This document shows positions 1-35,271 of a stretch of DNA of 41,364 nucleotides, piece by piece (positions within the stretch are counted from its first letter, which is position 1; each line of letters begins with the position of its first letter). The position numbers and the translations under genes are program-made. Source of the DNA: an uncultured Pelagibacteraceae bacterium (GTDB lineage Bacteria > Pseudomonadota > Alphaproteobacteria > Pelagibacterales > Pelagibacteraceae); the NCBI GenBank assembly GCA_902536305.1, contig CACAWX010000006.1, positions 1 through 41,364 on the forward strand, in the 5' to 3' direction. Under the pieces are notes generated by a model. The model saw only the letters and a list, made by a program, of their open reading frames with translations, was not told the DNA's origin and made no database searches.

Positions 1-597
1 TTTCCAACTTTTAATTGGGGTTTTTGTGAGGGTGAGGCTTTTAATTATTTAAAAACCAAATCACTTACAGGATCTCTTGGAAATTTAGCGCTAAAAAGAA
101 AAGATTTTTTGAGATCAATTAACCCAATTTACTCTTTTTCAATATTTGGAAAAGACAAAAAAAAAATAGCAAAGATGAGTCACAAGAGTTGTTTTGGGTT
201 AAATTCTCCGTTTGGTTTTCTCATTAAAAATGGTGGTAAAAATTTATTCATAGATCTAGATTATAAAGCAGCATTAACATATGCACATGTTGCTGAGGAA
301 ACAGTTGGAGTTAATTACAGATACCTCAAAACTTTTAATGGAGACTATTACGATATAAAAAATAAAAAAAGAAAAGTAAGCTACAAAATGTACGTAAGAA
401 AACTTAAGTTAGTAAAATCAACTCTTGTGCATAAAGATTTTGATAAACTTTTAAGGAGAAACCAAGCGCTCAAGAAAATCAATTTCAAAGGTCACCAGTT
501 TTCAATGATTGATATTAAAAAAACTTACATGCTAATGGTCAACGATATTTCTAAAAAGAAAGGCATGGTTTATCCGGTACTTTATAAGAACTTATGA
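1..597 (+). CDS. AAC(3)-family (Antibiotic_NAT) acyltransferase, 5' end outside window
   Basis: The reading frame is open from base 1, so this is the C-terminal 198 residues of a gene that begins outside the window; the internal TTG at 109 is not the real start. The pattern fits the aminoglycoside N3-acetyltransferase/YokD-like family: a TGSLGN block (about residues 24-29), RSINPIYSFSIFG (about 38-50), SPFGFLIKNGGK (about 69-80) and AHVAEETVGVNYRY, whose His is near residue 96. In the drug-modifying enzymes the second block usually reads RSxHPxHS; here both His positions are Asn and Tyr, so aminoglycosides are unlikely substrates. Located in a surface-sugar locus and overlapping the acyl ligase gene by 4 bases (ATGA), it more likely transfers an acyl group from CoA or ACP to an amino or hydroxy sugar. 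Family call firm, substrate inferred. Confidence 0.8.
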   Translation, partial: FPTFNWGFCEGEAFNYLKTKSLTGSLGNLALKRKDFLRSINPIYSFSIFGKDKKKIAKMSHKSCFGLNSPFGFLIKNGGKNLFIDLDYKAALTYAHVAEETVGVNYRYLKTFNGDYYDIKNKKRKVSYKMYVRKLKLVKSTLVHKDFDKLLRRNQALKKINFKGHQFSMIDIKKTYMLMVNDISKKKGMVYPVLYKNL

Positions 598-1973
598 AAT
601 TAGACTTTTATAAAATTGGAGGTAATAAAAAAAAAGTAATAATTGTTGATGAGAATCAAAAAAATATTTCTAAAGGAGAATTTGATAAAAAGATCAAAAC
701 TATTTCTAATTTTTTTTATGATTACTCAGTAATAGTAATTATAGCTGATAATTGTTTGGATTTCATCGCAGGTTATCTTGCTGCGTTAAACAAAAAAAAC
801 ACTATTACAATATTATTAGATAAGTCTTTCTCATTAAATTATATTGAAAAAGTAATAGGTTTGTATAAACCTAATATAGTTTTCTCTCCATTAAATCTTA
901 GTTTCTCAAAATTAAAGATTTTAAGTTTTTTTAATCTTCAAAATTACAAAATTTTAAATACTAATTTTAATTTAAGAAAAAATTATAATTTTTCAAATTT
1001 TCTATTGCTTTCAACCTCTGGTACAACTGAAAGTCCAAAATTTGTGAGACTTTCCAAAAAAAATATAGAGGATAACACTATTAAAATAATCAAATATTTA
1101 AATATCAAAAAAAATCAGACAACAATTACTACAATGCCAGCAGGTTACTCATATGGACTTTCAATTTTAAATTCACATCTGAAAGTTAGGTCAAAAATAG
1201 TTTTAAATAATAACTCAATTATAGAAAAAAGTTTTTGGGAAAAAATGAAAAAATTTAAAGTAAATTCTTTTGGAGGTGTTCCAGAATTCTATGAATTTTT
1301 AAGAAAATTGAATTTTAAAAAATATGTGAATAAAAATATGAAATATTTGACTCAGGCAGGCGGAAAACTTAACGAAAAAGATTTGGAATACTTTGGAAAA
1401 ATATGTAAAAAAAACAAAATTAAATTTTATGTAATGTATGGTCAAACAGAAGCGAGCCCAAGAATTTCTTTTTTAGAATGGAAATTTTTTTTTAAAAATC
1501 TGAACAGTATAGGCAAACCTTTAAAAGGATATAAATTAAAAATTTTTAATAGAGATAAAGAGATAAAAAGACCTAATAAAACTGGAGAACTAGTCTTATT
1601 TGGAAAAAATGTATGTCTTGGTTATGCGAATAACTTCAGTGATTTAAAACGTGGGGACGAGAATAAAAATATTCTAAGAACAGGCGACCTTGGATTTAAA
1701 GATAAAAAGAATTTTTTTTATATTACTGGAAGACTAAAAAAAATTGTAAAGATATTTGGAAAAAGATATGATTTAAATATTATTGAAAGTTTTGTGAGAG
1801 AGAAAGGTTATAAGATCAATTGTTATTTGATTGACAAAAAATTAAATATTCAAGTAGAAGATGTATATAAGGCAGATATTATAATTGACCTTATTTCAGT
1901 GAAATTTTCTCTAAATAAGAATCTCATTTTAATTAATAAAAACAAAGTCAAAACACTCAAAAGCTACAATTAA
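594..1973 (+). CDS. AMP-dependent acyl ligase (ANL superfamily)
   Basis: A 459-residue adenylate-forming enzyme that would activate a carboxylate as acyl-AMP and pass it to CoA or a carrier protein. Visible core motifs are STSGTTESPK near residue 140 (ATP-binding loop), YGQTE near 281, RTGDLG near 361, GRLKKIVK near 378, and a C-terminal NKNKVK resembling the A10 lysine motif. It is slightly shorter than typical acyl-CoA synthetases (500-600 residues), more like small ligases that load ACPs. It starts in an ATGA overlap with the upstream acyltransferase and ends sharing a base with the LuxE-like gene, so the set is probably translationally coupled. A discrete ACP is encoded at 8245. The acid it activates is unknown. 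Confidence 0.85.
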   Translation: MKLDFYKIGGNKKKVIIVDENQKNISKGEFDKKIKTISNFFYDYSVIVIIADNCLDFIAGYLAALNKKNTITILLDKSFSLNYIEKVIGLYKPNIVFSPLNLSFSKLKILSFFNLQNYKILNTNFNLRKNYNFSNFLLLSTSGTTESPKFVRLSKKNIEDNTIKIIKYLNIKKNQTTITTMPAGYSYGLSILNSHLKVRSKIVLNNNSIIEKSFWEKMKKFKVNSFGGVPEFYEFLRKLNFKKYVNKNMKYLTQAGGKLNEKDLEYFGKICKKNKIKFYVMYGQTEASPRISFLEWKFFFKNLNSIGKPLKGYKLKIFNRDKEIKRPNKTGELVLFGKNVCLGYANNFSDLKRGDENKNILRTGDLGFKDKKNFFYITGRLKKIVKIFGKRYDLNIIESFVREKGYKINCYLIDKKLNIQVEDVYKADIIIDLISVKFSLNKNLILINKNKVKTLKSYN

Positions 1974-2989
1974 TGATGGAAAATAAAAAATTTTTAGAAC
2001 AAATTAATTCTTTAACAGAATTGCATTATAAGAATTCTAAAATATTTAAGCTTGTAGTAGATAAAATTTATAAAAAAAAAGTTTTTTCATCTCATATAAA
2101 TGACGTTCCCTTCTTACCTGTAAGTTTATTCAAAGAATTTCATTTAAAAAGTATACCAGACAGTAAAATTTTTAAAATTCTTAATTCCTCTGGAACTAGC
2201 CAAACAAAACTTTCGAGTATTTATTTAGATAAAGAGAATGCGTATCAGCAGACAAAAGTTCTTAATCAAATAGTTGGTGAAATTCTTGGCCCAAAAAGAT
2301 TACCAATGATAATAATAGATGAAAAAGAAAATATAAAAAATCAAAAAAACTTCAACGCAAAAACTGCAGCTTATATTGGATTCTCTTTATTTGGTTCAAG
2401 TCATTTTTATCTCATTGAAAATGGAAAAGTCAATTATAAAGGTCTTAACTCATTTCTCCAAAAATTTGCCTCAGACAAATTTTTAATTTTTGGATTTACA
2501 AGTAAAATTTTTTTTCAATTTATAAATTTAATTGATCCCAAAAAATTAATAAGTAATTCTTTTAATAAAGCCATATTGATTCACGGTGGTGGTTGGAAAA
2601 AAATGGAAAGTAATAAAATTTCTAATAAAAAATTTAAAGAAATTTTAATGTCTAAATTTAAAATTTCCAATGTTTACAATTACTACGGGCTAGTTGAACA
2701 AACTGGATCAATTTTTTTTGAGAACAAAGATTGTGGTTTTTTTACCACTCACAAATTTTCAGATGTGTTAATTAGAGGTAAAAATTTTGAAGTTCTCTCA
2801 AAAAATAAGAAAGGATTTGTGCAATTAATCTCCACACTCCCAACTAGCTATCCTGGACATAGTATTTTGACCGAGGATGTTGGAGAAATAGTAGATGTTA
2901 AAAATTGCAAATGTGGAAAAAAAACGAAGCATTTTTATATACACGGTAGAGTTAAAGAGGCTGAAACAAGAGGTTGTAGCGATGTTTAA
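1973..2989 (+). CDS. LuxE-like acyl-protein synthetase
   Basis: 338 residues resembling the LuxE acyl-protein synthetase family, which in luminous bacteria activates a fatty acid with ATP and hands it to the reductase LuxC. The N-terminal third carries LNSSGTSQTK (about residue 70), the family's SSGTS nucleotide-binding loop. A YYGLVEQTGS block near 236 matches the ANL A5-type motif, and a Cys-rich stretch (CKCGKKTKHFYIHGR) lies near the C-terminus. The gene immediately downstream is LuxC-like, as in lux operons, but there are no luxAB genes. The pair therefore probably serves acid-to-aldehyde reduction for a sugar or lipid component of the surface glycan. Start: ATG overlapping the previous stop; a second in-frame ATG follows directly at 1976. 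Confidence 0.83.
   Translation: MMENKKFLEQINSLTELHYKNSKIFKLVVDKIYKKKVFSSHINDVPFLPVSLFKEFHLKSIPDSKIFKILNSSGTSQTKLSSIYLDKENAYQQTKVLNQIVGEILGPKRLPMIIIDEKENIKNQKNFNAKTAAYIGFSLFGSSHFYLIENGKVNYKGLNSFLQKFASDKFLIFGFTSKIFFQFINLIDPKKLISNSFNKAILIHGGGWKKMESNKISNKKFKEILMSKFKISNVYNYYGLVEQTGSIFFENKDCGFFTTHKFSDVLIRGKNFEVLSKNKKGFVQLISTLPTSYPGHSILTEDVGEIVDVKNCKCGKKTKHFYIHGRVKEAETRGCSDV
2968..2973 (+). promoter_or_regulatory. Ribosome binding site deciding the LuxC-like start
   Basis: AAGAGG, 8 bases before ATG 2982 and inside the end of the LuxE-like gene. It supports the short start over the upstream in-frame ATG at 2895. Confidence 0.55.
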
Positions 2990-4172
2990 AAACTTTCATA
3001 ATATAAAATTTTTAGTTGGCGACAGTAAATTCGAAAAGGTTTTACTTACTCCATACGATGATGAAATTTGCAATTTTTTAGGAGATTTTTCAAAAGAACT
3101 AAGCAAGAAAATTTATAATGATTTAATTGATCTAAAGTCTTTATCTTTTTGGTGTAGGAAAAATAATTTAAATAAAATAAAAAAATCTTTTTTTTCAAAC
3201 GAAATAAGAAGTGGAATTGGATTAATATTTCATGTCACACCCTCTAATGTTCCAACAAATTTTATGTATTCCCTTATTTTTGGCCTACTCACAGGTAATA
3301 GCAATATTGTCAAAGTTCCCTCTAAAAATTTTGAGCAAATAAAAATTATTTGTAAGATTATTAATAATTTATTAAATAAAAAAAAATTTAAAAAAATTAG
3401 AAAAATGATCAAAATAGTTAAATATGAAAATAATAATGATGAATTCACAAAATTTTTATCATCCATTTGTGACGTAAGAATAATTTGGGGAGGAGATAAA
3501 ACTATTGAAAAAATAAGAAAATTTCCAATTAATAGTCGCTCATTTGATTTAACCTTTGCTGATAGATACTCAATATGTATTTTAAATGCAAAAACGATAA
3601 AGAAAATTAGTAACAACGATTTAGAAAACTTAGTTAGAAAATTTTACAATGATGTTTTTATTTTTGATCAAAATGCTTGTTCTTCTCCACATTTAATTTT
3701 TTGGTTTGGATTGAATGAAAAAAATACAAGATTTAAATTCTGGGAGAAATTAAGCAAAATTATAGACAAGAGGTACAATATCCCAGATAAAGCAGTGGTC
3801 GATAAATTTAGTCAATTCTGCAGAGATACAATTAATCTTAAAGAAATAAAGTCACAAAATAAATTTGGAAATATGATCTACACAATTTTATTAAAAGAAA
3901 TTAATTCTGAAATTGAAAATTTGAGAGGAAAATGGGGTTATTTTTATGAAAAAGAAATTTCAAATTTGTCTGAAGTAAAAAATATTTTAACTAATAAATT
4001 TCAGACAATGACATATTTCGGAATTAATAAAAGACAACTCGAAACTTTTGCAAGAAGCAATTTAAAAGGTATAGACAGAATTGTTCCAATTGGTCAGGCT
4101 TTAGAAATTAGTTTAATTTGGGATGGATATGATATTAATAAAAAATTAACTAGAATAATAGATATTAAATGA
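2982..4172 (+). CDS. LuxC-like acyl-CoA/acyl-protein reductase
   Basis: 396 residues of the LuxC acyl reductase family, which reduces an enzyme-bound acyl thioester to an aldehyde with NADPH. The cofactor region reads GLIFHVTPSNVPTNF (about residues 79-93). The nucleophilic cysteine is probably Cys233 in DQNACSSPH, a strongly conserved LuxC motif. I chose ATG 2982 rather than the longer frame from 2895: AAGAGG at 2968-2973 sits 8 bases upstream, the overlap with luxE falls to 8 bases, and the longer N-terminus would only re-read the LuxE coding region. Partner of the LuxE-like protein just upstream. The aldehyde would be available to the two-part transketolase encoded at 6452-8243 (inference). 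Confidence 0.87.
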   Translation: MFKNFHNIKFLVGDSKFEKVLLTPYDDEICNFLGDFSKELSKKIYNDLIDLKSLSFWCRKNNLNKIKKSFFSNEIRSGIGLIFHVTPSNVPTNFMYSLIFGLLTGNSNIVKVPSKNFEQIKIICKIINNLLNKKKFKKIRKMIKIVKYENNNDEFTKFLSSICDVRIIWGGDKTIEKIRKFPINSRSFDLTFADRYSICILNAKTIKKISNNDLENLVRKFYNDVFIFDQNACSSPHLIFWFGLNEKNTRFKFWEKLSKIIDKRYNIPDKAVVDKFSQFCRDTINLKEIKSQNKFGNMIYTILLKEINSEIENLRGKWGYFYEKEISNLSEVKNILTNKFQTMTYFGINKRQLETFARSNLKGIDRIVPIGQALEISLIWDGYDINKKLTRIIDIK

Positions 4173-4636
4173 ATAAATTAGTTTTTGATATTAAATTAAT
4201 TAAAGAGTATCAACAAAACAGAGATCCATACCTATTGATTGATTATGCTACGGAAGTGGTACCTGGTGTGAGCGCTAAAGGTTACAAATTATTAAAAAAA
4301 GATGAATGGTTTTTTAAAGTTCATTGGCCAAATGACCCAAATATGCCTGGAATGCTTCAAATAGAATCCCTTGTTCAAATGTGTGCTTTATCTATTCTGA
4401 GCTTACCTGGTAATAAAGGAAAAGTATGTTACCTTACATCTGCGACAAATCTTAAATTTTTTAAAAAAATTTTACCTGATTCTAAACTGTATATTGATAC
4501 AAAAGTCAAAAGTTTCAAACGAGGTATGGCCTCTTGCTCAGGCATGGGTTCAATAAAAAATGAAATTGTTTGCAAAGCAGACTTTAACTTGATATTGCCA
4601 GAAGAAATTAAAAAGTATAGTTTAAACAAAATTTAA
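4169..4636 (+). CDS. FabZ-like 3-hydroxyacyl-ACP dehydratase (hot-dog fold)
   Basis: 155 residues with the signature of FabZ/FabA dehydratases: VHWPNDPNMPGMLQIESL, giving His52 and Glu66 with the same 14-residue spacing as the catalytic His/Glu of FabZ. The usual HFP is HWP here. It would remove water from a 3-hydroxyacyl-ACP to give a trans-2-enoyl-ACP. It is coupled to the LuxC-like gene by an ATGA overlap. A carrier protein, an acyl ligase and a FabG-like SDR lie in the same block, so it probably belongs to a dedicated acyl-chain or hydroxyacyl route, not housekeeping fatty acid synthesis (inference). A thioesterase of the same fold is possible, but the preserved His/Glu pair favours a dehydratase. 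Confidence 0.8.
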   Translation: MNKLVFDIKLIKEYQQNRDPYLLIDYATEVVPGVSAKGYKLLKKDEWFFKVHWPNDPNMPGMLQIESLVQMCALSILSLPGNKGKVCYLTSATNLKFFKKILPDSKLYIDTKVKSFKRGMASCSGMGSIKNEIVCKADFNLILPEEIKKYSLNKI

Positions 4637-4643
4637 TAAATTT

Positions 4644-5705
4644 ATGCCTATTGCATCATCATTACTTAACAAACCAAGATTAGTAAAAAAACTAAAAGAT
4701 TTTTACGATTACGTTCAGAAGAATGACGGTAAAGTAGGAACAAAAACTAGAGGAATAGATCTTAATTTTAACAACGCTTGTAATCTTAGATGTAAATACT
4801 GTTTTACAAATTCTCCAAAAGGGGACCATGTTAAAGAATACCTTGACTTAAAAGCTATAAAAAAACTTGCTGATGATGCTGATGAACTTGGTTATTTTGA
4901 ATTTGATTTGCAAGGTGGAGAACTTTTACTTCAGCCTAAAAAGTTATTTGAAGTTTTAGAAGCTATTCAACCTGAGAGATTTTATCTTTATTTAACTACC
5001 AATGGATATTATTTGGATAAAGAAATGGCAAAAAAATTGGCTGAACACAAAGTGAGCAGAGTTTCTGTAAGTATTGATAGCATGGACGAAAAAATTCATG
5101 ACGAAATTCGCGGAAGAAAAGATTCTTGGAGAAGGGCAATTGAGGGATTAGAACATGCAAAAGAAGCAGGGATGGATCCTTACTTGAATATCACAGTCGG
5201 ACATTACAATGCAAACACCGAGCACTTCAAACAACTATTAGATTATTCTAAAAACAAAAGATACAAAACTTTATTAAATGTAGCCGTACCATCAGGAATG
5301 TGGCAAAAAATGACTGAAATTATTTGTGATGACAAAGACAGAGAATATTTAAGAAAGATTAGAAAAGAATACAAGAATTTGGTTCGTAATATTTGGAACC
5401 CATTTGATAGAAATTTTGAGAAAATTTTAGGATGTACAACTGTTAATAGACTTTACGTAACTCCTATTGGAGATGTATTGGTATGTCCTTATGTTCATAT
5501 AAAAATTGGTAATATTTTCAAACAATCTTTAAAAGAAATTGTAGATCACGGTTTTAGTATCAAATATTTTAGAAACCACAGCGACCTGTGTCTTGCTGGT
5601 GAAGACAAAAGTTTTATTAAAAAATTTATGACTAAAAGTGGACAATCAATTTTTAAACCTGCTTTAGCTGAAGAGATCTTTTCAAAAGAAGATTACGTAA
5701 AATAA
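4644..5705 (+). CDS. Radical SAM enzyme with SPASM-type C-terminus
   Basis: 353 residues. CNLRCKYC supplies Cys46, Cys50 and Cys53, the CxxxCxxC ligands for the catalytic 4Fe-4S cluster that cleaves S-adenosylmethionine. A QGGELLL block follows near residue 90 (the GGE SAM-contact motif), and SVSIDSMDEKIHDEIRG near 134-150. Cysteines in LGCTT (about 262), VLVCPY (about 280) and SDLCLAG (about 316) fit a SPASM/twitch auxiliary-cluster domain. Such enzymes carry out dehydrogenation, epimerisation, C-C bond formation or sugar dehydration. Here it lies between an acyl dehydratase and an SDR in a glycan locus, with no precursor peptide nearby, so a small-molecule or sugar substrate is more likely than a peptide. 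Substrate unknown. No clear ribosome binding site precedes the ATG. Confidence 0.85.
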   Translation: MPIASSLLNKPRLVKKLKDFYDYVQKNDGKVGTKTRGIDLNFNNACNLRCKYCFTNSPKGDHVKEYLDLKAIKKLADDADELGYFEFDLQGGELLLQPKKLFEVLEAIQPERFYLYLTTNGYYLDKEMAKKLAEHKVSRVSVSIDSMDEKIHDEIRGRKDSWRRAIEGLEHAKEAGMDPYLNITVGHYNANTEHFKQLLDYSKNKRYKTLLNVAVPSGMWQKMTEIICDDKDREYLRKIRKEYKNLVRNIWNPFDRNFEKILGCTTVNRLYVTPIGDVLVCPYVHIKIGNIFKQSLKEIVDHGFSIKYFRNHSDLCLAGEDKSFIKKFMTKSGQSIFKPALAEEIFSKEDYVK

Positions 5706-5706
5706 G

Positions 5707-6450
5707 ATGCTTCTTAAAAATAAAAATGCAGTAGTCACGGGCTGCAATAGAGGAATTGGAAAAGAAATATTAGAAACATTTTCATCAAATGGAGCAAATA
5801 TTTTTGCTTGTGTTCGTAATTCAGACAATAATTTTATAAATTTTACTAAAGAGTTGGAGAAGAAATTTAATAATAAGATCTTTATTGTAGACTTGGACCT
5901 TAGTGATACAGAAAATATAAAAAATGCAGCAAACGAAATCTTGTCTAAAGAAAAATCAATTGATATTTTAATAAACAATGCTGGGATTATTCATACCGCT
6001 TTATTTCAAATGACGTCTGAAGTAAAGTTAAAAGAAATTTTTGATATTAATTTTTTTTCACAAACTGTCTTTACTCAATATATTTTAAAATCGATGATTA
6101 GAAAAAGGACAGGTAGCATCCTTTATATTTCCTCAAGTTCAGCAATAGACTCTAATAAAGGAAGAAGTGCCTACTCATCTGCAAAAGCAGCTTTGATTAC
6201 TCAAGCAAAAACTTTATCTAAAGAAGTTGGTCCATACAATATAAGAATTAATGTTATTGCCCCTGGACTTACCGATACAGATATGATGAATCAAAATACT
6301 GACAAAAAGATTATAGAGCAAGTTACATCTGAAATATCTTTGAAAAGAATAGGATTGCCAAATGAAATAGCAAAAGCAGCGTTGTTTCTTTCATCTGATT
6401 ATTCAAGTTATATAACTGGTCAAGTATTAAGAGTAGATGGAGGTATGTAA
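5707..6450 (+). CDS. Short-chain dehydrogenase/reductase, FabG-like
   Basis: 247 residues, standard classical SDR length. It has VVTGCNRGIGKE (cofactor glycine motif, residues about 8-19), LINNAGI near 94, a Ser block SSSSA, and Tyr156/Lys160 in YSSAK as catalytic pair. The C-terminus YITGQVLRVDGGM is typical of 3-oxoacyl-ACP reductases and related sugar or polyol dehydrogenases. It begins one base after the radical SAM stop codon. In this neighbourhood it could reduce a 3-oxoacyl-ACP before the FabZ-like step, or reduce the ketose produced by the transketolase pair (inference). Its last codons contain the GGAGGT that serves the next gene. Confidence 0.85.
   Translation: MLLKNKNAVVTGCNRGIGKEILETFSSNGANIFACVRNSDNNFINFTKELEKKFNNKIFIVDLDLSDTENIKNAANEILSKEKSIDILINNAGIIHTALFQMTSEVKLKEIFDINFFSQTVFTQYILKSMIRKRTGSILYISSSSAIDSNKGRSAYSSAKAALITQAKTLSKEVGPYNIRINVIAPGLTDTDMMNQNTDKKIIEQVTSEISLKRIGLPNEIAKAALFLSSDYSSYITGQVLRVDGGM
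6439..6444 (+). promoter_or_regulatory. Strong ribosome binding site before the transketolase N-terminal subunit
   Basis: GGAGGT, unusually strong for this window, lies within the last codons of the SDR gene and 7 bases before TTG 6452. It favours TTG 6452 over the upstream in-frame ATG 6437, which has no such site. Confidence 0.5.
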
Positions 6451-6451
6451 A

Positions 6452-7276
6452 TTGGAAATCGATAATTTAGATGATTTAAGAAAACTTTCTAAAAAAATGA
6501 GAAAAAAGATTTTAGAGATGGCGCTTTATGCTGGCGCAAGTAGCTCTCACTTTGGAGGCGCTTTATCATCTGTAGATATTCTTGCAACTCTTTTTGGTAA
6601 GATAATGAATTTCAACAAAGTTAATTTAAAAAATCCAGAAAGAGACAGATTTATTTTAAGTAAAGGACATGGATGTTTAGTATATTACTCAATTTTAAAT
6701 ATCCTAAATATAATTGACGATGATGAATTAAAAACTTTCGAAAAAGATGACTCAAAATTACTTGGTCATCCTGTAAAGAGTCAAAATATTGGTATTGATT
6801 TTTCAACTGGGAGTCTTGGTATGGGATTCTCTCTAGCAATTGGTGTCGCAATCGCTTTAAAAAAAAAAAAATTGAATAATAAAGTTTTTGTTTTACTAGG
6901 AGATGGAGAATGTAATGAAGGATCCATTTGGGAGGCAGCTCTTTGTGCTCCAAACCTAAAATTAAACAATTTAACTGTAATTATAGACAATAATAAGTTT
7001 CAACAAACTGGATCAAATAAAGAAATTATGAATATACATGATTTAGAAAAAAAATGGTCAAGTTTTAATTGGATAACAAAAAAAGTAGATGGCCATAATC
7101 ATAAAGAAATATTTGAAGCTTTAAACTTACCAGACGAACAACTTCCCAAAGCAATTATTTGTAGCACTATAAAAGGCAAAGGATTTTCTTTTTCAGAAAA
7201 TAACAATGATTGGCATCATAAGATTATGACAAAAGATAATTATGAACTGGCATTAAAGGAGCTAGAAAATGATTGA
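6452..7276 (+). CDS. Transketolase, N-terminal (TPP-binding) subunit
   Basis: About 275 residues, the usual size for the pyrimidine/pyrophosphate half of a split transketolase. The TPP/Mg motif is LLGDGECNEGSIWEA followed by IIDNNKFQQTG (GDG...NN). SKGHGC and GSLGMGFSLAIG match conserved cofactor-pocket regions. Start: TTG 6452 is supported by GGAGGT 7 bases upstream; ATG 6437 would add five residues and overlap the SDR by 14 bases. The C-terminal half is the next gene, overlapping by 8 bases. Transketolases move a two-carbon ketol unit between sugars. A dedicated split copy beside LuxC/LuxE-like genes suggests a special acceptor aldehyde (inference), although some bacteria also use split copies for pentose metabolism. 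Confidence 0.88.
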   Translation: MEIDNLDDLRKLSKKMRKKILEMALYAGASSSHFGGALSSVDILATLFGKIMNFNKVNLKNPERDRFILSKGHGCLVYYSILNILNIIDDDELKTFEKDDSKLLGHPVKSQNIGIDFSTGSLGMGFSLAIGVAIALKKKKLNNKVFVLLGDGECNEGSIWEAALCAPNLKLNNLTVIIDNNKFQQTGSNKEIMNIHDLEKKWSSFNWITKKVDGHNHKEIFEALNLPDEQLPKAIICSTIKGKGFSFSENNNDWHHKIMTKDNYELALKELEND

Positions 7277-8243
7277 CATAAATACTAAAAAAATTGACAT
7301 GTGGTCAAAAATTGGATCAAGAGCTACATTAGGAATTGCCATCTTAGAAATTGAAAAAAATTTAAAAAATTTATGTGTTGTGACTTGCGATGTTTCTACT
7401 TCTGCTGGATTAGATAGGTTTAGAAGACAAAAACCAGATAAATATTTAGACTTAGGAATTTCTGAACAAAACTTAATTGGTGTGGCTTCGGGCCTGTCTT
7501 CCGAGGGTTTTGATGTGATAACAACAACATTTGCACCTTTTCAAACTTTAAGATGCTGTGAACAGATTAAAGTAAACTTAGGTTACATGAAATCTAAAGT
7601 TATAATGGTAGGCCTAGCATCTGGATTAGTATTAGGGACGCTTGGATATACCCACTGCTCTATTGAAGAGGTAGGTGTTTTAAGATCTATACCAAATATT
7701 ACTATAATTTCTCCAGCTGATAGCTTAGAAGTTGTAAAGGCTTTAACAGCGTCAATTAATCATAATCAAAGTGTATACATAAGACTTACAGGAGGTGCTC
7801 CAATTGAAAAAGTATATAATGATGATTACAACTTCGTTATTGGAAAAGCAGTTCAGATTTTAAAAGGTAAAGATGTATCAATTTTTTCGTCTGGCGCGCT
7901 GGTTTCGAGTTGTATTAAAGCATCAAAAATTCTTGAAGAGCAAAATATATCTTGCTCAGTTACAAATTTTCATACCATTAAACCAATTGATGAAAATATG
8001 ATTAAAGAGGAATTAAAATCTAAAAAATTGATTATTACAGTGGAAGAGCACAATACAATTGGAGGCCTTGGTAGCGCTGTTTCAGAGGTATCTTCTAAAG
8101 TTTCTAACTCACCAAAAATAATCTCGTTAGGAATAAAAGACACATATAGTGACGGAGGATCTTATAATTTTTTATTAAAAAAACATGGACTTAATGTTGA
8201 AGGGATTGTAAAAAGCATTTCAGAAGAAATTTTTAAAATTTAG
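7269..8243 (+). CDS. Transketolase, C-terminal subunit
   Basis: 324 residues that complete the split transketolase. YLDLGISEQNLIGVASGL near residues 57-74 contains the Glu of ISEQN, which activates the TPP aminopyrimidine. GLASGLVLGTLGYTHCSIEEVGVL corresponds to the conserved His/Glu active-site stretch, and IPNITIISPADSLEV follows. It overlaps the N-terminal subunit by 8 bases and ends one base before the ACP gene. The same architecture occurs in DXP synthase and the E1 beta subunit of dehydrogenase complexes. The separate N-terminal partner with a transketolase-type motif set, and the lack of E2/E3 genes, support transketolase. Confidence 0.88.
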   Translation: MIDINTKKIDMWSKIGSRATLGIAILEIEKNLKNLCVVTCDVSTSAGLDRFRRQKPDKYLDLGISEQNLIGVASGLSSEGFDVITTTFAPFQTLRCCEQIKVNLGYMKSKVIMVGLASGLVLGTLGYTHCSIEEVGVLRSIPNITIISPADSLEVVKALTASINHNQSVYIRLTGGAPIEKVYNDDYNFVIGKAVQILKGKDVSIFSSGALVSSCIKASKILEEQNISCSVTNFHTIKPIDENMIKEELKSKKLIITVEEHNTIGGLGSAVSEVSSKVSNSPKIISLGIKDTYSDGGSYNFLLKKHGLNVEGIVKSISEEIFKI

Positions 8244-8244
8244 T

Positions 8245-8481
8245 ATGAGCTTAGATAAATATAAAAAAGTTTTTATTGAATCACTTTCAATTGACGCAAC
8301 AAAATTTAGTGATCAAATAAAATATAACGACATTCCCGAGTGGGACTCTATAGGACACATGACTTTAATCTCTGCATTGGAGGAAAATTTTTCAATTACA
8401 ATTGACACAGACGATATAGTAGACTTTAGTTCTTTTGAAGTTGGTAAAAAAATTTTATTAAAATATGGAGTCAAATTCTAA
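8245..8481 (+). CDS. Acyl carrier protein
   Basis: 78 residues, acidic, ACP-like. EWDSIGHM contains Ser35, the expected 4'-phosphopantetheine attachment site, followed by a helix-rich segment (LEENFSITIDTDDIVDF). It is divergent from fatty-acid AcpP (DSLDxVEL), as expected for a dedicated carrier. It lies directly behind the transketolase subunits and in the same coupled block as the acyl ligase, LuxE/LuxC, FabZ-like and FabG-like genes. It is therefore the likely carrier on which the acyl intermediate is activated, processed and reduced (inference). It needs a phosphopantetheinyl transferase, not seen in the window. Confidence 0.87.
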   Translation: MSLDKYKKVFIESLSIDATKFSDQIKYNDIPEWDSIGHMTLISALEENFSITIDTDDIVDFSSFEVGKKILLKYGVKF

Positions 8482-8490
8482 AACCATTTC

Positions 8491-9279
8491 ATGAAAAAAG
8501 AGCTTAATAAGCACATTCAAAACTTAAAAACAAAAGGCATTACATTTCTCGATAATGTTTTCTCAAAAAAAGACTGTAATAAGTATATTCAAAGGTTTGA
8601 AAAACTTTGTCATAATTTTGAAAAAAAAAATAAAAAATTAGGAGATTATGGTCAAACAATTCAGAATTATTTTTCCTACGATAAAAAATTACTTAAATTC
8701 CTATTTATTAAAGAAGTTGATGAAATACTTAAGAAATTAATTGATGATAATTATGTACTAATTAATTCTAGTTTAACGAATAGATTTAATAGAAAGAAAA
8801 ATTTTAAAAAAGTTTCATCCCACTTTGATAACTTAGGCGGTAAATGGCACCACGATTCAAGAATTATTGGAGGAAAAAGACTTGATAAAGGTTTTAGCTA
8901 TACGGTTGTTATAATGTTTGATAAGTTTACAAAAGAGAATGGATGTACAGAGTATGTCGAAAAATCGCATTTAATAAGAGATAAATTCCCTAAAAAAAAT
9001 AAATCTTACAAAAATTCAAAACTAATTCTTGGTGGACAAGGTACTGTAGCTATATTTGATACAGGACTATGGCATAGAGCTGGCTCTCCAAGTAGCAAAT
9101 TTTCAAGGTGGAGTATTTTTGCTTACTATGGACCATGGTTCATGAAACCTTACTATGATTTTCCAAATATGTTTAAAAAAAATAGCAAATTAAGCAAAAA
9201 CTTAAAAAAGTTATTACATTTCAACTCTATTCCTCCAAAAAATGAATTAGAGAGAACTTACACTCTTACAAAGATTTAA
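8491..9279 (+). CDS. PhyH-family Fe(II)/2-oxoglutarate dioxygenase
   Basis: 262 residues resembling phytanoyl-CoA dioxygenase-like enzymes. WHHDSR provides the HxD iron ligands (His120, Asp122), and the distal ligand is probably His195 in LWHRAGS. SRWSIFAYYGPW follows, with the Arg expected to hold 2-oxoglutarate. NGCTEYVEKSH matches the family's G.. ..vPGSH segment. It would hydroxylate an unactivated carbon, with 2-oxoglutarate and oxygen as co-substrates. It lies between the ACP gene and a CMP-sugar synthetase, so the substrate could be the acyl chain or the sugar. A second, distantly similar PhyH gene is at 20817. Confidence 0.82.
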   Translation: MKKELNKHIQNLKTKGITFLDNVFSKKDCNKYIQRFEKLCHNFEKKNKKLGDYGQTIQNYFSYDKKLLKFLFIKEVDEILKKLIDDNYVLINSSLTNRFNRKKNFKKVSSHFDNLGGKWHHDSRIIGGKRLDKGFSYTVVIMFDKFTKENGCTEYVEKSHLIRDKFPKKNKSYKNSKLILGGQGTVAIFDTGLWHRAGSPSSKFSRWSIFAYYGPWFMKPYYDFPNMFKKNSKLSKNLKKLLHFNSIPPKNELERTYTLTKI

Positions 9280-20816: not shown

Positions 20817-21614
20817 ATGATAAAAAATGAATTAATAAGTGAAATCAAATCAAAAGGTATTATAAAAATTGATAATTTTTTAAATTCAAAAGAAACTTTA
20901 AAAGTACAAAATTTAATTAAATTTTACTCAGTTCCCAAAGATGATCCGGCAAGCTACTTTCCAACTAATTATAAATCAGCTTTTTTAAAGATATTAAAGC
21001 TTAATTTTAATAAATTTTATCACAGCATACAAATTATAAATATCGAAAAGAAAAAAAATCTTCTAAACTTTTCTAATAATTTTTTTGGAAAAAAATCAAA
21101 ACTACGTTACATCGATGCTTATTATAGCAAAATAAGCAATAAAGAAATTTTACCGTGGCACACAGACCAAGCTTACTCTGGCAAAATGAATATTTCAAAT
21201 TTTAATAACCCTAATGATTTTTTTTTAAAAATTTTTGTATATTTAACAGATGTAGGCCCAGGAAATGGTTGTATGAGTTACATACCCGAGTCTCATAAAA
21301 TTGGCTATGCTATTAGAGAAGGAATATTTAATAAAATAATTAATTATCAACCTTACTGGAGGCTAAAAGATTTTAAGAAAATTATTTATGATAATTTAGT
21401 TTATTTTGAAAATTATTTTAAAGAGACAAATATATTATATAATTTTTTAAAAAAAACTGATGATTTAGTGAAATTAGATTCAAATGACAGCTACAGTTAT
21501 GAGGCTAAAGCAGGTAGCGCAATAATTTTTAATGAAGGGGGCGTTCATAGAGGCTCAAAACCCCTGGTCAATGACAGAATGGTACTGAGATATATGTATT
21601 CGAGGGATAATTAG
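20817..21614 (+). CDS. PhyH-family Fe(II)/2-oxoglutarate dioxygenase, second copy
   Basis: 265 residues. PWHTDQAY gives iron ligands His115 and Asp117. NGCMSYIPESHKIG is the family's conserved middle block, and the distal ligand is probably His244 in GGVHRGS. RMVLRYMYS supplies the Arg for 2-oxoglutarate. It shares architecture with the PhyH protein at 8491 but little direct similarity, so the two likely hydroxylate different substrates. It sits between an epimerase and an SDR, consistent with hydroxylation of a sugar or its acyl substituent (inference). Confidence 0.83.
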   Translation: MIKNELISEIKSKGIIKIDNFLNSKETLKVQNLIKFYSVPKDDPASYFPTNYKSAFLKILKLNFNKFYHSIQIINIEKKKNLLNFSNNFFGKKSKLRYIDAYYSKISNKEILPWHTDQAYSGKMNISNFNNPNDFFLKIFVYLTDVGPGNGCMSYIPESHKIGYAIREGIFNKIINYQPYWRLKDFKKIIYDNLVYFENYFKETNILYNFLKKTDDLVKLDSNDSYSYEAKAGSAIIFNEGGVHRGSKPLVNDRMVLRYMYSRDN

Positions 21615-23123: not shown

Positions 23124-24236
23124 ATGCAAATAAAATATAAACTAGAAAAAGAAGATCACTATGTCACTTTTTGCAGGACTAATTCTCTAGAAAAAATTTC
23201 AATTTTTTTTGAAAAAATTAATTCAGACAAAAACGTATTACTTTTATATGACAAAAATATTAGTAAAGAAATTATAAAAAAAATTTATAATGAATTAAAA
23301 ATTTCTGGGTGCAATATAATTTTGAAAGAGTGTAAAGGTGATAAAGTCAATAAAAACAAGAAATTTTTATTTGAATTAATTGATACTTTATTAATAAATA
23401 AATTTACAAAAAGATCAGCAGTAATTTCATGCGGTGGTGGTGTCGTGGGTGATGTATCTGCTTTGGCTAGTAGTTTGTATTTAAGAGGGTTATATTATTT
23501 TAATATACCTACAACTATTACTGCAATTATAGATAGTTCTATTGGAGGAAAAACTGCAATTAATTATAAAGGTATTACAAACTCCGTTGGCACTTATTAT
23601 CATCCTAAAAATGTTTTTATATTAGAGGAGATTTTAAAAACTTTACCAGAAAGAGAATTTATTTCTGGTGTGGCAGAAATTATAAAGTGTGGACTTATCG
23701 ATAATATCAAAATTATTAAATTCTTAATAAAAAATAAAAAACAAATTGTTGAGAGAAAGTTTAATTATTTGAACAAATTATGTGCAATGACAATTAATAC
23801 AAAAATTAAATACTTTAAGGATGATATTTACGAGAAAAATAAAAGATTATATTTGAATTTTGGACACACATTTGCGCATGCAATTGAAATGGCAATAGAG
23901 AATGTCTCAAAAAAAGATGTAATAAGACATGGAGAAGCTGTCTCATTAGGTATGTTAAGTGAAATATATTATGCGAATAATGGAAAATCTAAATTTTATA
24001 ATGAAACAAAAAAACTCTTAAGTGATTTTAAATTACCAACAAAAATTTTTCCAAAAAAAATTAACATCAGTCAAATAGAACTTCAAAATGATATTTACAA
24101 AAATATTTTTATGGATAAAAAAAAAATTGACAAATACCCAAGATATATTTCATTAAAAAAAATAGGAAATCCTAAAATAGTAAAAATAGAAAATTTTGAT
24201 TTTTTAAATGACACTATCTTGCAATTATTTGCTTAA
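23124..24236 (+). CDS. 3-dehydroquinate synthase-like sugar-phosphate cyclase
   Basis: 370 residues, the normal length for the dehydroquinate synthase superfamily. SCGGGVVGDVSALASSLYLR (about residues 105-124) binds NAD. IPTTITAIIDSSIGGKTAIN near 132-151, GVAEIIKCGL near 186, LNFGHTFAHAIE near 245 (Zn His) and RHGEAVSLGM near 268 (Zn His) follow. The DSSIGGKTA motif is like true dehydroquinate synthase rather than valiolone-type cyclases. No other shikimate gene is nearby, so it may be a recruited paralogue that makes a cyclitol or carbasugar, or simply aroB in an unusual place. Checking for a second aroB in the genome would decide. Confidence 0.78.
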   Translation: MQIKYKLEKEDHYVTFCRTNSLEKISIFFEKINSDKNVLLLYDKNISKEIIKKIYNELKISGCNIILKECKGDKVNKNKKFLFELIDTLLINKFTKRSAVISCGGGVVGDVSALASSLYLRGLYYFNIPTTITAIIDSSIGGKTAINYKGITNSVGTYYHPKNVFILEEILKTLPEREFISGVAEIIKCGLIDNIKIIKFLIKNKKQIVERKFNYLNKLCAMTINTKIKYFKDDIYEKNKRLYLNFGHTFAHAIEMAIENVSKKDVIRHGEAVSLGMLSEIYYANNGKSKFYNETKKLLSDFKLPTKIFPKKINISQIELQNDIYKNIFMDKKKIDKYPRYISLKKIGNPKIVKIENFDFLNDTILQLFA

Positions 24237-26337: not shown

Positions 26338-27435
26338 ATGAAAAAATTTAAAAATTATAGTGTATTTTTAAGAAAGTATAAAAATCTTAAAGTATTAATT
26401 ACAGGCTCTACTGGTTTTAAAGGCGCCTGGTTATCTTATTGGTTATTTATTTTAGGAGCAAAAGTAGTAGGAGTAGGTCTAAGACCAGAAAAAAATTCTA
26501 TTATTTTCAAATCATTAAAATTAAATAAAAAAATCAAACAATATTACATTGACATAAGGGATCTCAAAAAATTAGATCGAGTTATAAAAAAAGAAAAACC
26601 GAGAATTGTTTTTCATTTAGCAGCTCAATCAATAGTCTCTCAAAGTTTTAAAAATCCTACAGAAACTGTAACCACAAATGTTATTGGAAGCACAAATGTA
26701 TTAGAGTCCGTAAGACTGAATAAGGTTCCTAATTTAGTCTATGTTACTTCTGATAAATGTTATTTAAATTTGGATAAAGCGAACGGTTACAAAGAAAATG
26801 ATACATTGGGTGGGTTAGATAATTATTCATCATCAAAAGCAAGTGCCGAAATAATATTCAATTCATACTATAATAGTTATTTTAAAAGTAAGTATTTAAA
26901 TGTTGCTAGTGTAAGAGCCGGAAATGTAATTGGAGGCGGTGATCTAAAACAAGATAGAATTATCCCTGATATAATTAAATCTATAAAACTCAAAAAGAAT
27001 TTAATTTTGAGAAATCCAAGCTCAACTCGTCCGTGGCAACATGTATTAGAGCCTTTATCTGGGTACTTACTTTTAGGTAACTTACTAATGAGTAAAAAAT
27101 TAGATAATAAAATAAAACCTAACTGGAACTTTGGGCCTTACGAAAAAAATTGTAAAAAAGTAAAAGAAATTACCAAAAAAATTTTAAAAAAAATTAAATC
27201 CAACATTAAGGTGATTATTAAAAAAAATAAAAACTTTCATGAATCTAATCTTTTGAGTCTGAATATTAATAAGGCTAATAAAGAATTAGGTTGGAAACCA
27301 ACACTTAATTTTGAAAATACGATGGATTTTACCGTATCTTGGTACAAAGCTTATTTAAAAGGTGAAAACTTGGAAAAAATGACATCAAACCAGATAAAAC
27401 TTTATACTTCCAAAATTAGGATTATTAAACAATGA
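26338..27435 (+). CDS. rfbG: CDP-glucose 4,6-dehydratase
   Basis: 365 residues. VLITGSTGFKGAWLSYWL (about residues 18-35) is the hallmark N-terminus of RfbG, followed by GVGLRPEK, VFHLAAQSIVSQSF near 97, VTSDKCY near 137, NYSSSKASAE with Tyr163/Lys167, and RAGNVIGGGD near 196. RPWQHVLEPLSGYL near 239 completes the pattern. It converts CDP-D-glucose to CDP-4-keto-6-deoxy-D-glucose. The enzyme making CDP-glucose is at 28646 and a C-methyltransferase lies between them, so the three form one cassette. No RfbH-type 3-dehydratase gene is present, which argues against 3,6-dideoxyhexoses. Confidence 0.9.
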   Translation: MKKFKNYSVFLRKYKNLKVLITGSTGFKGAWLSYWLFILGAKVVGVGLRPEKNSIIFKSLKLNKKIKQYYIDIRDLKKLDRVIKKEKPRIVFHLAAQSIVSQSFKNPTETVTTNVIGSTNVLESVRLNKVPNLVYVTSDKCYLNLDKANGYKENDTLGGLDNYSSSKASAEIIFNSYYNSYFKSKYLNVASVRAGNVIGGGDLKQDRIIPDIIKSIKLKKNLILRNPSSTRPWQHVLEPLSGYLLLGNLLMSKKLDNKIKPNWNFGPYEKNCKKVKEITKKILKKIKSNIKVIIKKNKNFHESNLLSLNINKANKELGWKPTLNFENTMDFTVSWYKAYLKGENLEKMTSNQIKLYTSKIRIIKQ

Positions 27436-28643
27436 GATGCAGAATTTGCAAAGGTAAACTTAAAACTATTATCGACTTTGGTAAAATTGGTTTGGTTGGA
27501 AATTTTTATAATAAAAAAAAAATTGACAAAAAATTTAAAATTTCTCTAAATTTTTGTAGTTTATGCAAACATGTTCAAATAGGAGAAAAATTAAATCCAG
27601 ATGCACTTTTTAAAAATTATCTATGGGAAACTGGTGTTTCAAAATCTAATATAACATTAATAAAAAGATTAATAAAAACTCTTAAAAAACTTAAAGCATC
27701 CAAGAAATCAAAAATCTTTGAAATAGCCTGCAATGATGGCATATTTTTAAATATATTACAAAGAAAACTAAATTGTTTTGCAGTGGGAATGGATCCAGCA
27801 AGAAATCTCGCTAAAAAAAACAAAACCAAAAATGTTTTAAGAATTGTCAATTATTTCAATAAAAAAACTTCTAAATATACAAGTATTAAGTTTGGTAAAT
27901 TTGACTTTGTGATAGCTAGGAATGTCTTAGCTCATGTCAAAAATCCTAATGAAATATTTAAAGGTGCTTTTAATATTCTTAATGATCATGGGATTTTAAT
28001 ATTAGAATTTCCAAGTTTGTTAAATATTATTAAAAATAATCAATACGATAACATTTTTCATGAACATATTGGATTTCATTCGCTTAAATCAATTCTAGAT
28101 CTTTGCAAAATAAATAATATGAAAATGATTAATTTCGATAAAATTGATTCACAGGGTGGTTCTTTACGTTGTTATGTTGTCAAAAAATCATGCAAAATCA
28201 AGATAAGCAATAAAATTAAAAATTTCGTTAAAGTTGAAAAAAATAATGGTCTTTACAGCAACAAAAAATTAATCAGTTTTAAAGATAAAATAAATGCCCA
28301 CCGAGTTAAAATAAACTCTTTTATAAAAGATTTGAAGAAGAAAAGGAAAAAAATATCTGCTTATGGAGCTTCAGGTAAAGGTTTAGCTTTGTTACAATAC
28401 TGTAAAATTGATAATAAACTTATTGATGAAATTTATGATAAAAGTAAATTAAAACAAAATAAATTTACGGCTGGAACACAAATTTTTATCAAAAACCCAT
28501 TAAAGATTAGAAAACAAAGAATTGATTACCTTTTACTCTTAAGCTGGAATCTTAAAAAGGAAATTATAAAACAAGAAAAAAAATTTAGAGTTAATGGGGG
28601 TAAATTTATAGTTCCATTTCCAAGTCCAAGGGTAATTAAATAA
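27432..28643 (+). CDS. NDP-sugar C-methyltransferase (TylC3/NovU-type)
   Basis: 403 residues in the three-part layout of sugar C-methyltransferases. An N-terminal zinc-binding domain carries CRICKG and CSLCKH (two CxxC pairs). The central SAM domain has FEIACNDGIFLNIL near 96, GMDPARNLAKKN near 117, and RNVLAHVKNPNEIF near 158. A catalytic segment FHEHIGFHS near 212 and DSQGGSLRCYV near 239 follow. The C-terminal domain has ISAYGASGKGLALLQYC near 310. This type methylates the carbon next to the keto group of 4-keto-6-deoxy sugars. With RfbG beside it, the product is probably a CDP-linked 6-deoxy-3- or 5-C-methyl-hexose (inference). Overlaps rfbG by 4 bases. Confidence 0.86.
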   Translation: MRCRICKGKLKTIIDFGKIGLVGNFYNKKKIDKKFKISLNFCSLCKHVQIGEKLNPDALFKNYLWETGVSKSNITLIKRLIKTLKKLKASKKSKIFEIACNDGIFLNILQRKLNCFAVGMDPARNLAKKNKTKNVLRIVNYFNKKTSKYTSIKFGKFDFVIARNVLAHVKNPNEIFKGAFNILNDHGILILEFPSLLNIIKNNQYDNIFHEHIGFHSLKSILDLCKINNMKMINFDKIDSQGGSLRCYVVKKSCKIKISNKIKNFVKVEKNNGLYSNKKLISFKDKINAHRVKINSFIKDLKKKRKKISAYGASGKGLALLQYCKIDNKLIDEIYDKSKLKQNKFTAGTQIFIKNPLKIRKQRIDYLLLLSWNLKKEIIKQEKKFRVNGGKFIVPFPSPRVIK

Positions 28644-28645
28644 AT

Positions 28646-29341
28646 ATGAAAGTTTTAATTTTAGCAGGTGGATTTGGTACAAGATTATCTGAGTACACAG
28701 ATAGTATTCCAAAACCTATGATACCAATTGGAAATAAACCAATAATTGAACATATAATTTCAATTTATTCAAAGTATGGATTTAACGAATTTATAATAGC
28801 ACTTGGTTATAAGGGAGATGTCATAAAAAATCATTTTAACAATTTTAAAAGTAAATTAAAAATTGAACTCATCGATACTGGATCTGAGACATTGACTGGC
28901 GGTAGGATTAAAAGGCTTAAAGATCATTTTAAGGAACCTTTTTTTCTAACTTATGGTGATGGGGTGTCAGATATAGATATTGGTAAGCTATTAAAATTTC
29001 ATAAAAGTCATAAAAAAACTCTTACTGTAACTGCAGTAAGACCTCCAGCAAGATTTGGATACCTATCACTTGAACATGATACTGTTACAAAATTTAGTGA
29101 AAAAGTTGATAGAGGAGAAAATTGGATCAATGGCGGTTTCTTTGTAGCCGAGTCAAAAATATTTGACTTTATTGATGGAGATAACACTATTTTTGAAAAA
29201 GAGCCTTTGGAGAAACTCGCAAGCATGGGTGAGTTAAAAGCTTTTAAACATGAGGGTTTTTGGCAGTGTATGGATCACAAAATCGATAAAATTAAATTAG
29301 ATGAACTTTGTCTTAAAAATAAAGCTCCATGGCTAAAATAA
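28646..29341 (+). CDS. rfbF: Glucose-1-phosphate cytidylyltransferase
   Basis: 231 residues. ILAGGFGTRLSEYT (residues about 5-18) binds the nucleotide, IPKPMIPIGNKPIIEHI follows, and FLTYGDGVSDID near 99 holds the metal-binding Asp. VRPPARFGYLSLE near 131 and GENWINGGFFVAES near 151 are specific for RfbF-type enzymes, and GFWQCMDHKIDK near 207 replaces the usual end. It makes CDP-glucose from CTP and glucose 1-phosphate for RfbG. It is about 25 residues shorter than typical RfbF (about 257), the tail being cut after APWLK, where the next gene overlaps by 13 bases. Confidence 0.9.
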   Translation: MKVLILAGGFGTRLSEYTDSIPKPMIPIGNKPIIEHIISIYSKYGFNEFIIALGYKGDVIKNHFNNFKSKLKIELIDTGSETLTGGRIKRLKDHFKEPFFLTYGDGVSDIDIGKLLKFHKSHKKTLTVTAVRPPARFGYLSLEHDTVTKFSEKVDRGENWINGGFFVAESKIFDFIDGDNTIFEKEPLEKLASMGELKAFKHEGFWQCMDHKIDKIKLDELCLKNKAPWLK

Positions 29342-32822: not shown

Positions 32823-33063
32823 AAATCATTTACTAAATTTAAACGAGATATTTAAAAAATATTTCAATAGAAAAATTACTCTTAAAAAAACAACCTCTGC
32901 TAAAGATATTAAAGGTTGGGATAGTCTAGCACAAGTTGGCTTGATTTTAATGATAGAAAAAAAATATAAGATGAGGTTTTCTTTATCCGAAACTAGTAAT
33001 TTAAAAAATATTGGAGACATGATCAAAGTCTTGCAAAGAAAAATTAATGAAAAAAAAATATAG
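32815..33063 (+). CDS. Acyl carrier protein, second copy
   Basis: 82 residues. GWDSLAQVGLI holds Ser37, the phosphopantetheine site, with a helix III region (LSETSNLKNIGDMIKVL) typical of small ACPs. It overlaps the FkbH gene at its start (8 bases) and the MaoC gene at its end (17 bases), so these three are probably made in fixed ratio. FkbH enzymes need exactly such a discrete carrier. It differs from the ACP at 8245 beyond the WDS motif, so the two carriers probably serve separate routes. Confidence 0.87.
   Translation: MDKNHLLNLNEIFKKYFNRKITLKKTTSAKDIKGWDSLAQVGLILMIEKKYKMRFSLSETSNLKNIGDMIKVLQRKINEKKI

Positions 33064-35153: not shown

Positions 35154-35271
<118 letters not shown>

Follow-up and report, generated by a model that had tools for sequence, protein, structure and literature searches.

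A LuxE–LuxC cassette with a split transketolase in a surface-glycan island of an uncultured Pelagibacteraceae bacterium, and its possible role in forming a polyhydroxylated acyl group

Gene content of the locus

The stretch of DNA analyzed here (the window) comprises 41,364 nucleotides from an uncultured Pelagibacteraceae bacterium (assembly GCA_902536305.1; 878 kb, 73% complete) and represents the start, from base 1, of contig CACAWX010000006.1 (C6). It contains a cassette in which LuxE- and LuxC-type genes lie together with a split transketolase (TK) and an acyl carrier protein (ACP). The order is [AAC(3)]–acyl-AMP ligase–LuxE–LuxC–FabZ–radical SAM–FabG–TK N-half–TK C-half–ACP–PhyH, all on the + strand and upstream of the 5S rRNA gene. 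The genes that a preliminary description of the window had named at 594–8481 are all present, with overlaps of up to 14 bases and gaps of at most 7 bases.

The first gene encodes an AAC(3)/Antibiotic_NAT-type N-acyltransferase (1..597; PF02522, 68.7 bits), which lacks its 5′-end because the window starts at base 1 of the contig. The acyl-AMP ligase follows (594..1973; PF00501 AMP-binding, 99.7 bits); its open reading frame (ORF) cluster is found in 37 of the 43 wide loci compared. The LuxE-type acyl-protein synthetase (1973..2989; PF04443, 160.7 bits) possesses a C-terminal acyl-acceptor Cys in the motif RGCSD, the Cys being conserved in 58 of 58 aligned rows and the full motif in 47. The LuxC-type acyl reductase (2982..4172; PF05893, 113.7 bits) starts with the ATG at 2982, 8 bases inside LuxE, so that the Cys of its NACSSP motif is residue 233, as previously described (234 if counted from 2979); 60 of 61 aligned rows have this Cys and one has a gap. 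The FabZ/FabA-type dehydratase (4169..4636; PF07977, 63.4 bits) has the His52 and Glu66 ascribed to it. Next come a radical SAM/SPASM enzyme (4644..5705; PF04055, 111.4 bits; PF13186 SPASM, 29.9), the predicted structure of which is poor (mean predicted local distance difference test score, pLDDT, 58.7), and a FabG-type short-chain dehydrogenase/reductase (SDR; 5707..6450; PF13561 (adh_short_C2), 189.9 bits). The TK is encoded as an N-half, the thiamine diphosphate (ThDP) diphosphate side (6437..7276; PF00456, 134.4 bits), and a C-half (7269..8243; PF02779 (Transket_pyr), 92.9 bits; PF02780 (Transketolase_C), 86.8). The ACP (8245..8481) carries the phosphopantetheine motif EWDSIGH; its PF00550 score of 20.2 bits lies under the cut-off of 20.8, and the match to the NCBIfam ACP model (E 6.6e-6) is likewise below cut-off. 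The WDS triplet is conserved in 42 of 42 aligned rows (some loci counted twice). Starting 9 bases after the ACP, a PhyH-type Fe(II)/2-oxoglutarate dioxygenase (8491..9279; PF05721, 51.1 bits) is probably a tailoring enzyme.

Glycan ORFs run to 34,989 and are followed by tRNA-Val at 35,016 and the 5S rRNA gene at 35,156. Hypervariable region 2 (HVR2) of SAR11 lies between the 23S and 5S rRNA genes and holds surface genes (PMC2217521). The island of the window likewise holds surface-glycan genes as far as the 5S rRNA gene; the contig begins inside the island, so the 23S side falls beyond the sequence. A homologous cassette is present in a Pelagibacteraceae single-cell genome (L200), and the host is presumably of SAR11 type.

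Conservation within the SAR11 family

LuxE (PF04443) scores above cut-off in 24 of 297 genomes of the family, including that of the window, and in 25 at E 0.001. Apart from the window's own, 23 wide loci were taken; in two of them (L038 and L044) the contig ends before the TK side, and their omission leaves 21 uncut loci. FabZ, radical SAM and FabG are found near LuxE in all 21, both TK halves in 20 (the exception being L030), and the ACP also in 20 (exception L039). Homologues of the AAC(3)-type gene are present in eight of the 23 wide loci, at the same position in L041 and L042.

The radical SAM proteins of the 21 cassettes are 68–93% identical to that of the window, versus 39–59% for LuxC (in L051 LuxC is in two pieces, of 54 and 65%). 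Of the 297 genomes, 27 have a strong radical SAM orthologue (E below 1e-150), namely 23 of the 24 LuxE genomes and four others, in which the gene starts no more than 1.4 kb from the contig start. In genome G098 radical SAM and LuxE are on different contigs, and in G222, the only LuxE genome lacking a strong orthologue, the locus ends at the contig end. The radical SAM gene (4644–5705; loci L029–L051) is much more conserved than its cassette neighbors, yet co-inherited with them.

Distribution across phyla and co-inheritance

The phylum sample of 397 genomes gave 27 with a LuxE match, the window's own included, of which 26 were above cut-off. Leaving the window's own genome aside, 15 of 26 LuxE genomes were represented by wide loci, as were 4 of 21 plasmid records. 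ACP, ligase, LuxE and LuxC occur together in 18 of the 20 wide loci outside SAR11; the other two, L092 and L098, have no cassette and were excluded. A split TK is part of four of these 18 (L079, L083, L088, L094) and is missing from 14. Cassettes without TK also occur in Deinococcus and Nonomuraea.

The reverse search used the TK C-half profile alone against one genome per species (84,980 species), and the best 80 of 592 relatives were kept. LuxE and LuxC lie within 14 of the 16 top loci (not in L198 or L203) and within none of the remaining 64 (Fisher p 8e-14, a value which ignores relatedness). The 14 hosts represent five phyla: Pseudomonadota (Pseudoduganella, Dickeya, Rhizobium, Pantoea, Erwinia and Pelagibacteraceae), Bacillota (Selenomonadaceae, two Oscillospiraceae, Lachnospiraceae and Clostridiales), and a member each of Planctomycetia, Brevinematales (Spirochaetota) and Synergistales. 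A Spirochaetota sample added two more TK cassette loci, L303 and L306. As a control, 26 further split-TK loci of Pseudomonadota from the phylum sample were inspected, some in short stretches (4.5 kb for L349, 12 kb for L341), and LuxE/LuxC adjoin none of them. L350, an extra split TK of genome G164, also has no LuxE/LuxC in its stretch, but the cassette of G164 is only about 11 kb away.

A TK C-half tree of 95 rows was built, including 32 of the 64 loci L205–L268 and three further, 10 of the 20 SAR11 TK loci, and L200. It places the 31 lux-linked rows and L198 in one clade with support of 100/99. On a LuxE tree of 46 rows, with the same 10 SAR11 loci together with L030 and L200, presence or absence of TK requires three changes, against a mean of 12.9 when the label was shuffled; none of 500 shuffles was as low. 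L030 is nested among TK-bearing rows on this tree. Therefore, the TK has been passed down together with its LuxE and has only rarely been lost or exchanged. The genes are associated far more often than chance would allow. The co-occurrence, clade and tree tests agree with the earlier proposal that these genes form one module. Independent travel of the genes, which would have spoken against that proposal, is seen on one side only: ACP, ligase, LuxE and LuxC do without TK in 14 of the 18 loci outside SAR11, but the TK of this clade was found without Lux genes only once (L198).

Radical SAM homologues are found in the cassettes of two Clostridia-type genomes (50% identity in L202, Clostridiales; 41% in L193), and in Rhizobium and Pseudoduganella the place of radical SAM is taken by a GMC flavin oxidoreductase. 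By manual reading, in which GMC was not profiled in L303 and L306, a radical SAM or GMC gene accompanies FabZ in 10 of 10 loci with a cassette FabZ and is found in none of the 12 without; the FabZ of L204 was counted as a housekeeping gene because LpxC and LpxA adjoin it. This pairing amounts to about three lineages and is therefore a hint only. The "gluconate 2-dehydrogenase subunit 3" partner of GMC is present in L189 and was not among the three small neighbors tested in L079, L083 and L094, and is given no weight. The surroundings of the TK cassettes include hexapeptide or GNAT acyltransferases and DegT aminotransferases, and nonulosonic-acid genes lie beside SAR11-family and TK-less cassettes.

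Two arrangements are recorded as side observations. On one Oscillospiraceae contig (L197), two LuxE–LuxC pairs adjoin two TK pairs. In the spirochaete cassettes (L306, 12261–13202; L303, 9963–10673) a lactate/malate dehydrogenase-like gene directly follows LuxC, and a thioesterase gene lies between the ligase and LuxE; both are possible hints to the substrate acid.

The transketolase

A full-length TK (at least 420 bits; frames of 647–689 amino acid residues) is present in 20 of 21 relatives picked for completeness, G250 being the exception. The concern that the split TK might be the cell's only pentose-phosphate enzyme thus falls away for these relatives. In the host's own assembly no second PF00456 match was found, which its incompleteness (73% complete) may explain.

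Pocket positions, given in the numbers of the E. coli enzyme, were assigned by motif against the full-length SAR11 TKs. The cassette TK keeps the ThDP-site residues and the donor-contact His (equivalents of H26, H66, H100, H473 and E411; His473 is His129 of the window C-half). The sugar-phosphate pocket is altered, His461 and Asp469 being Ala117 and Leu125. Both are replaced in every cassette TK read, with Leu, Phe, Ser or Gln at 469. The Arg520 region reads YIRLTG and its alignment is ambiguous. The closest solved structure for both halves is the split TK of Carboxydothermus hydrogenoformans (PDB 6yaj/6yak; E 1.5e-52 and 1.4e-60). It is the only TK of that organism and accepts bulky aldehydes with hydroxypyruvate; in our alignment it keeps the pocket His and Asp, unlike the cassette TK. 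Most split TKs of Clostridia and archaea among the best 80 of 592 relatives likewise keep Asp469. In E. coli TK, the D469T variant accepts propanal and has a hydrophobic surface for nonpolar acceptors, and a pyruvate-accepting variant carries H100L (PMC10787763); H100 is retained in the cassette TK.

We considered the pocket as a specific sign of a non-sugar acceptor and rejected this, since control split TKs share the change. By its sequence, the pocket marks the enzyme as not a standard sugar-phosphate TK, and nothing further. A broad group of split TKs from Pseudomonadota (L163–L188, L120) lacks Asp469 and has no Lux genes nearby, many members showing the motif GNGGG...PLGPTH; one of these split TKs belongs to a SAR11-family genome and is not part of a cassette.

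These data bear on whether the TK has anything to do with LuxE and LuxC. Its role might instead be to provide a glycolyl unit, or the ketose or aldose from which a different sugar of the island is made, and the frequency of TK-less cassettes (14 of 18 loci) and the other split TKs of similar pocket without Lux genes fit such a role. We regard this as unlikely, as almost every member of the TK clade, across five phyla, belongs to a lux locus although the adjoining sugar genes vary (nonulosonic acid, Rml-like and others). That the TK would act on the aldehyde from LuxE/LuxC, as originally proposed, appears the most economical reading, because 31 of the 32 rows of the clade are Lux-linked and 20 of 21 relatives have a separate full-length TK.

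Comparison with known systems

The TK-less set ACP–SDR–ligase–LuxE–LuxC, followed in the Deinococcus locus L080 by a hexapeptide acyltransferase, can be likened by description to the tetronate genes of Vibrio cholerae O1 (rfbKLMNO/wbeKLMNO, VC0248–VC0252). We take RfbN to be a LuxE–LuxC fusion, RfbK an ACP, RfbM an iron alcohol dehydrogenase and RfbO an acyltransferase; to our knowledge, the set has no TK, FabZ or radical SAM. The tetronate-type combination of ACP, AMP-type ligase, LuxE and LuxC is found in one cluster in the window. Published work states that the V. cholerae genes yield 3-deoxy-L-glycero-tetronate, which acylates the amino group of perosamine (PMC3441752), that RfbN has a LuxE domain (PMC4772473), and that WbeL has 471 residues and a putative ATP-binding domain (PMC3441752, PMC4772473).

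This comparison matters for the end product. The preliminary description envisaged an unusual ketose: a carrier-bound acyl group would be released as an aldehyde, converted by TK to a long or branched ketose, aminated, and used as a sugar unit of the glycan. Such a route has in common with ours the action of TK on an aldehyde, and DegT aminotransferases adjoin several TK cassettes. The TK-less sister cassettes, however, would then yield a bare aldehyde for which no partner gene was recognized, and the tetronate precedent produces an acyl group (PMC3441752). RmlA/RmlB-like genes, so named from the ORFs and not by profile, beside two spirochaete cassettes would offer the aminotransferase an ordinary nucleotide-sugar substrate. 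With TK-less forms resembling N-acyl tetronate genes, and acyltransferases, aminotransferases and nonulosonic-acid genes adjoining, a ketose end product is not upheld, and we consider it improbable.

A set like that of the window has already been listed in Dickeya: the same LuxC, LuxE, ligase, two TK halves, FabG and ACP, adjoining an aminotransferase and an acyltransferase. Two FabGs and no FabZ, radical SAM or PhyH are listed there, the set is annotated as fatty-acid or sugar biosynthesis only (PMC7575072, PMC6206727, PMC4522980), and one paper treats a tie to flagellar biogenesis as unlikely. A matching gene set is found in Dickeya oryzae (L190). As regards function, the earlier statement that no characterized pathway has this set still holds; as a list of genes, minus FabZ and radical SAM, the set was on record. 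Our literature search, within the texts accessible, found no pathway assignment for the TK-bearing set.

Aeromonas Group II flagellin islands contain ACP, 3-oxoacyl-ACP reductase, AMP synthetase, LuxE and LuxC genes beside those for pseudaminic acid (Pse); unlike the cassette, they have no TK, a word that does not appear in the paper. Aeromonas piscicola AH-3, whose island has ACP, FabG, AMP ligase, LuxE and LuxC, bears a glycan with a 376.14 Da Pse derivative and an unassigned unit of 102 Da, neither of which has been traced to these genes. Monoacetyl-Pse plus tetronoyl (C4H6O3) computes to 376.148 Da.

LuxE/LuxC/ACP sets in flagellin islands have been read as possible makers of a liposugar (PMC7874193, PMC4875605), a component suggested in an enterobacterial flagellin paper. 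By analogy with bioluminescence, the cassette might then make a fatty aldehyde or lipid-like chain that anchors or lipidates the glycan; the names LuxE, LuxC, FabG, FabZ and ACP, and a ketoacyl synthase III (KAS III)-type gene in the L306 cassette, are in keeping with this. However, the Pfam scan of the ORFs of 1–34,989 found no ketoacyl synthase families and no LuxD transferase or LuxAB luciferase families, and the window proteins score far under the requirements of the NCBIfam fatty-acid LuxE and LuxC equivalog models (55.8 versus 550, and 42.8 versus 750). The product of the closest characterized genes, tetronate, is a C4 hydroxy acid. On these grounds (the equivalog scores, the missing ketoacyl synthase and LuxD, and the tetronate product) LuxE/LuxC were rejected as fatty-acid machinery, and a lipid product is very improbable.

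Two further flagellin systems were compared. In Shewanella oneidensis, sfmABCDE, which encode a ThDP enzyme and 3-oxoacyl-ACP-reductase-like and NeuB-domain proteins, are needed for flagellin modification by a 274 Da nonulosonic acid carrying a 236–264 Da unit; the ThDP enzyme is annotated ilvB and none of the five genes is given as LuxE or LuxC. The acyl group on the Treponema denticola flagellin is reportedly 2-methoxy-4,5,6-trihydroxyhexanoyl, and with monoacetyl-Pse this group computes to 450.185 Da. The published glycan mass is 450.2 Da (PMC9481697). Genome G851 was taken as T. denticola on an exact match, unique among 341 genomes, to a primer printed in that paper; its best TK-profile match is a 675-residue frame whose motif reads as DXS-like. 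T. denticola was rejected as a genetic precedent because G851 lacks both LuxE and a cassette-type TK.

Other genes of the island

PhyH- or TauD-type genes occur in 15 of the 23 SAR11-family wide loci, as judged by a profile scan of ORF-cluster representatives (clusters c17, c24 and c41, and L041). They adjoin the ACP of the cassette or are located at other points of the island (8491–9279 and 20817–21614 in the window; L030, L042, L048–L051 and others), and their families vary from genome to genome. A second small acyl set is located at 31113–34071, where genes for a HAD/FkbH-like protein, an ACP-like protein, a MaoC dehydratase and an SDR follow in overlapping order. The PF12689 match of the first is weak and below cut-off, FkbH-like being our reading of its sequence, and the ACP-like protein (82 residues) has no Pfam match. 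The island further holds a gene resembling dehydroquinate synthase and a set of nucleotide-sugar genes that includes a C-methyltransferase (23124–24236, 26338–29341).

Proposed pathway

We propose, with a probability of about 0.5, that the product of the cassette is a short, polyhydroxylated acyl group, which is passed to an amino sugar of the surface glycan. LuxE would act on the free carboxylate of a small acid, in the simplest case at one end of a C4 diacid such as malate, converting it first to acyl-AMP and then to a thioester on the LuxE Cys, and LuxC would reduce this thioester with NADPH to the aldehyde. The split TK would then add a two-carbon ketol unit, a C4 semialdehyde thereby giving a 3-deoxyhexonoyl (C6) group, and the FabG-type reductase would reduce the new ketone. 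In the sub-type seen in the window, FabZ and the radical SAM enzyme (GMC in Rhizobium and Pseudoduganella) may carry out further oxidation and dehydration of the chain, with possible hydroxylation by PhyH. The AMP ligase would load the remaining carboxylate onto the ACP, from which an AAC(3)-, hexapeptide- or GNAT-type acyltransferase would move the acyl group to the amino group of a nucleotide sugar. The C4 diacid and the C6 3-deoxyhexonoyl-like product are guesses prompted by the tetronate precedent. We infer every reaction, and the order of reactions; the observed basis is the identity, conservation and co-inheritance of the genes, a TK distinct from the relatives' full-length TK, and an island that has no ketoacyl synthase. 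Read most simply, these would point to a tetronate-like route with a ketol extension of the aldehyde ahead of the reduction, giving a longer polyhydroxy N-acyl group.

Several points weigh against this proposal. For the ketol product to become a transferable acyl group, the substrate must have a second carboxyl group, and the pathway assumes that it does. The acyltransferase of the window is truncated. The cassette has an SDR where V. cholerae presumably has an iron alcohol dehydrogenase; the sole island match to the Fe-ADH-like Pfam family is below cut-off and lies in the dehydroquinate-synthase-like protein. The SAR11-family locus L030 has FabZ, radical SAM and ACP in its cassette and no TK within 20 kb, and L198 is the sole case of the clade's TK without Lux genes. 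The change in the TK pocket is not specific: outside the clade (phylum sample and one SAR11 genome) Asp469 is missing in 27 of 27 split TKs and His461 in 26 of 27, and Lux genes adjoin none of these enzymes. The spirochaete L306 cassette includes the KAS III-type ketoacyl synthase, and chain building there may proceed by condensation. The mass of 376.14 Da also fits isomers such as O-methylglyceroyl, and comes from an island for which TK is not mentioned. In T. denticola, whose reported flagellin acyl group would match the expected product best, LuxE and the cassette-type TK are both absent from the genome.

A wider reading is that an aldehyde-plus-TK line makes an undescribed class of carbohydrate-like acyl groups, with a diacid semialdehyde, a split TK whose pocket is not of the sugar-phosphate kind, editing by radical SAM or GMC with FabZ, and N-acylation, from SAR11 to gut Clostridia and spirochaetes. 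We hold this tentatively and think it somewhat unlikely in its entirety.

Implications

If the proposal is true, a gene set annotated as "fatty acid biosynthesis" in several genomes would have a testable function, with transketolase serving as a chain-extension enzyme for the acyl groups of glycans. The cassettes would, in addition, offer naturally occurring TKs that act on non-sugar aldehydes. For SAR11, the cassette would explain part of the diversity of the cell surface, possibly an answer to phage.

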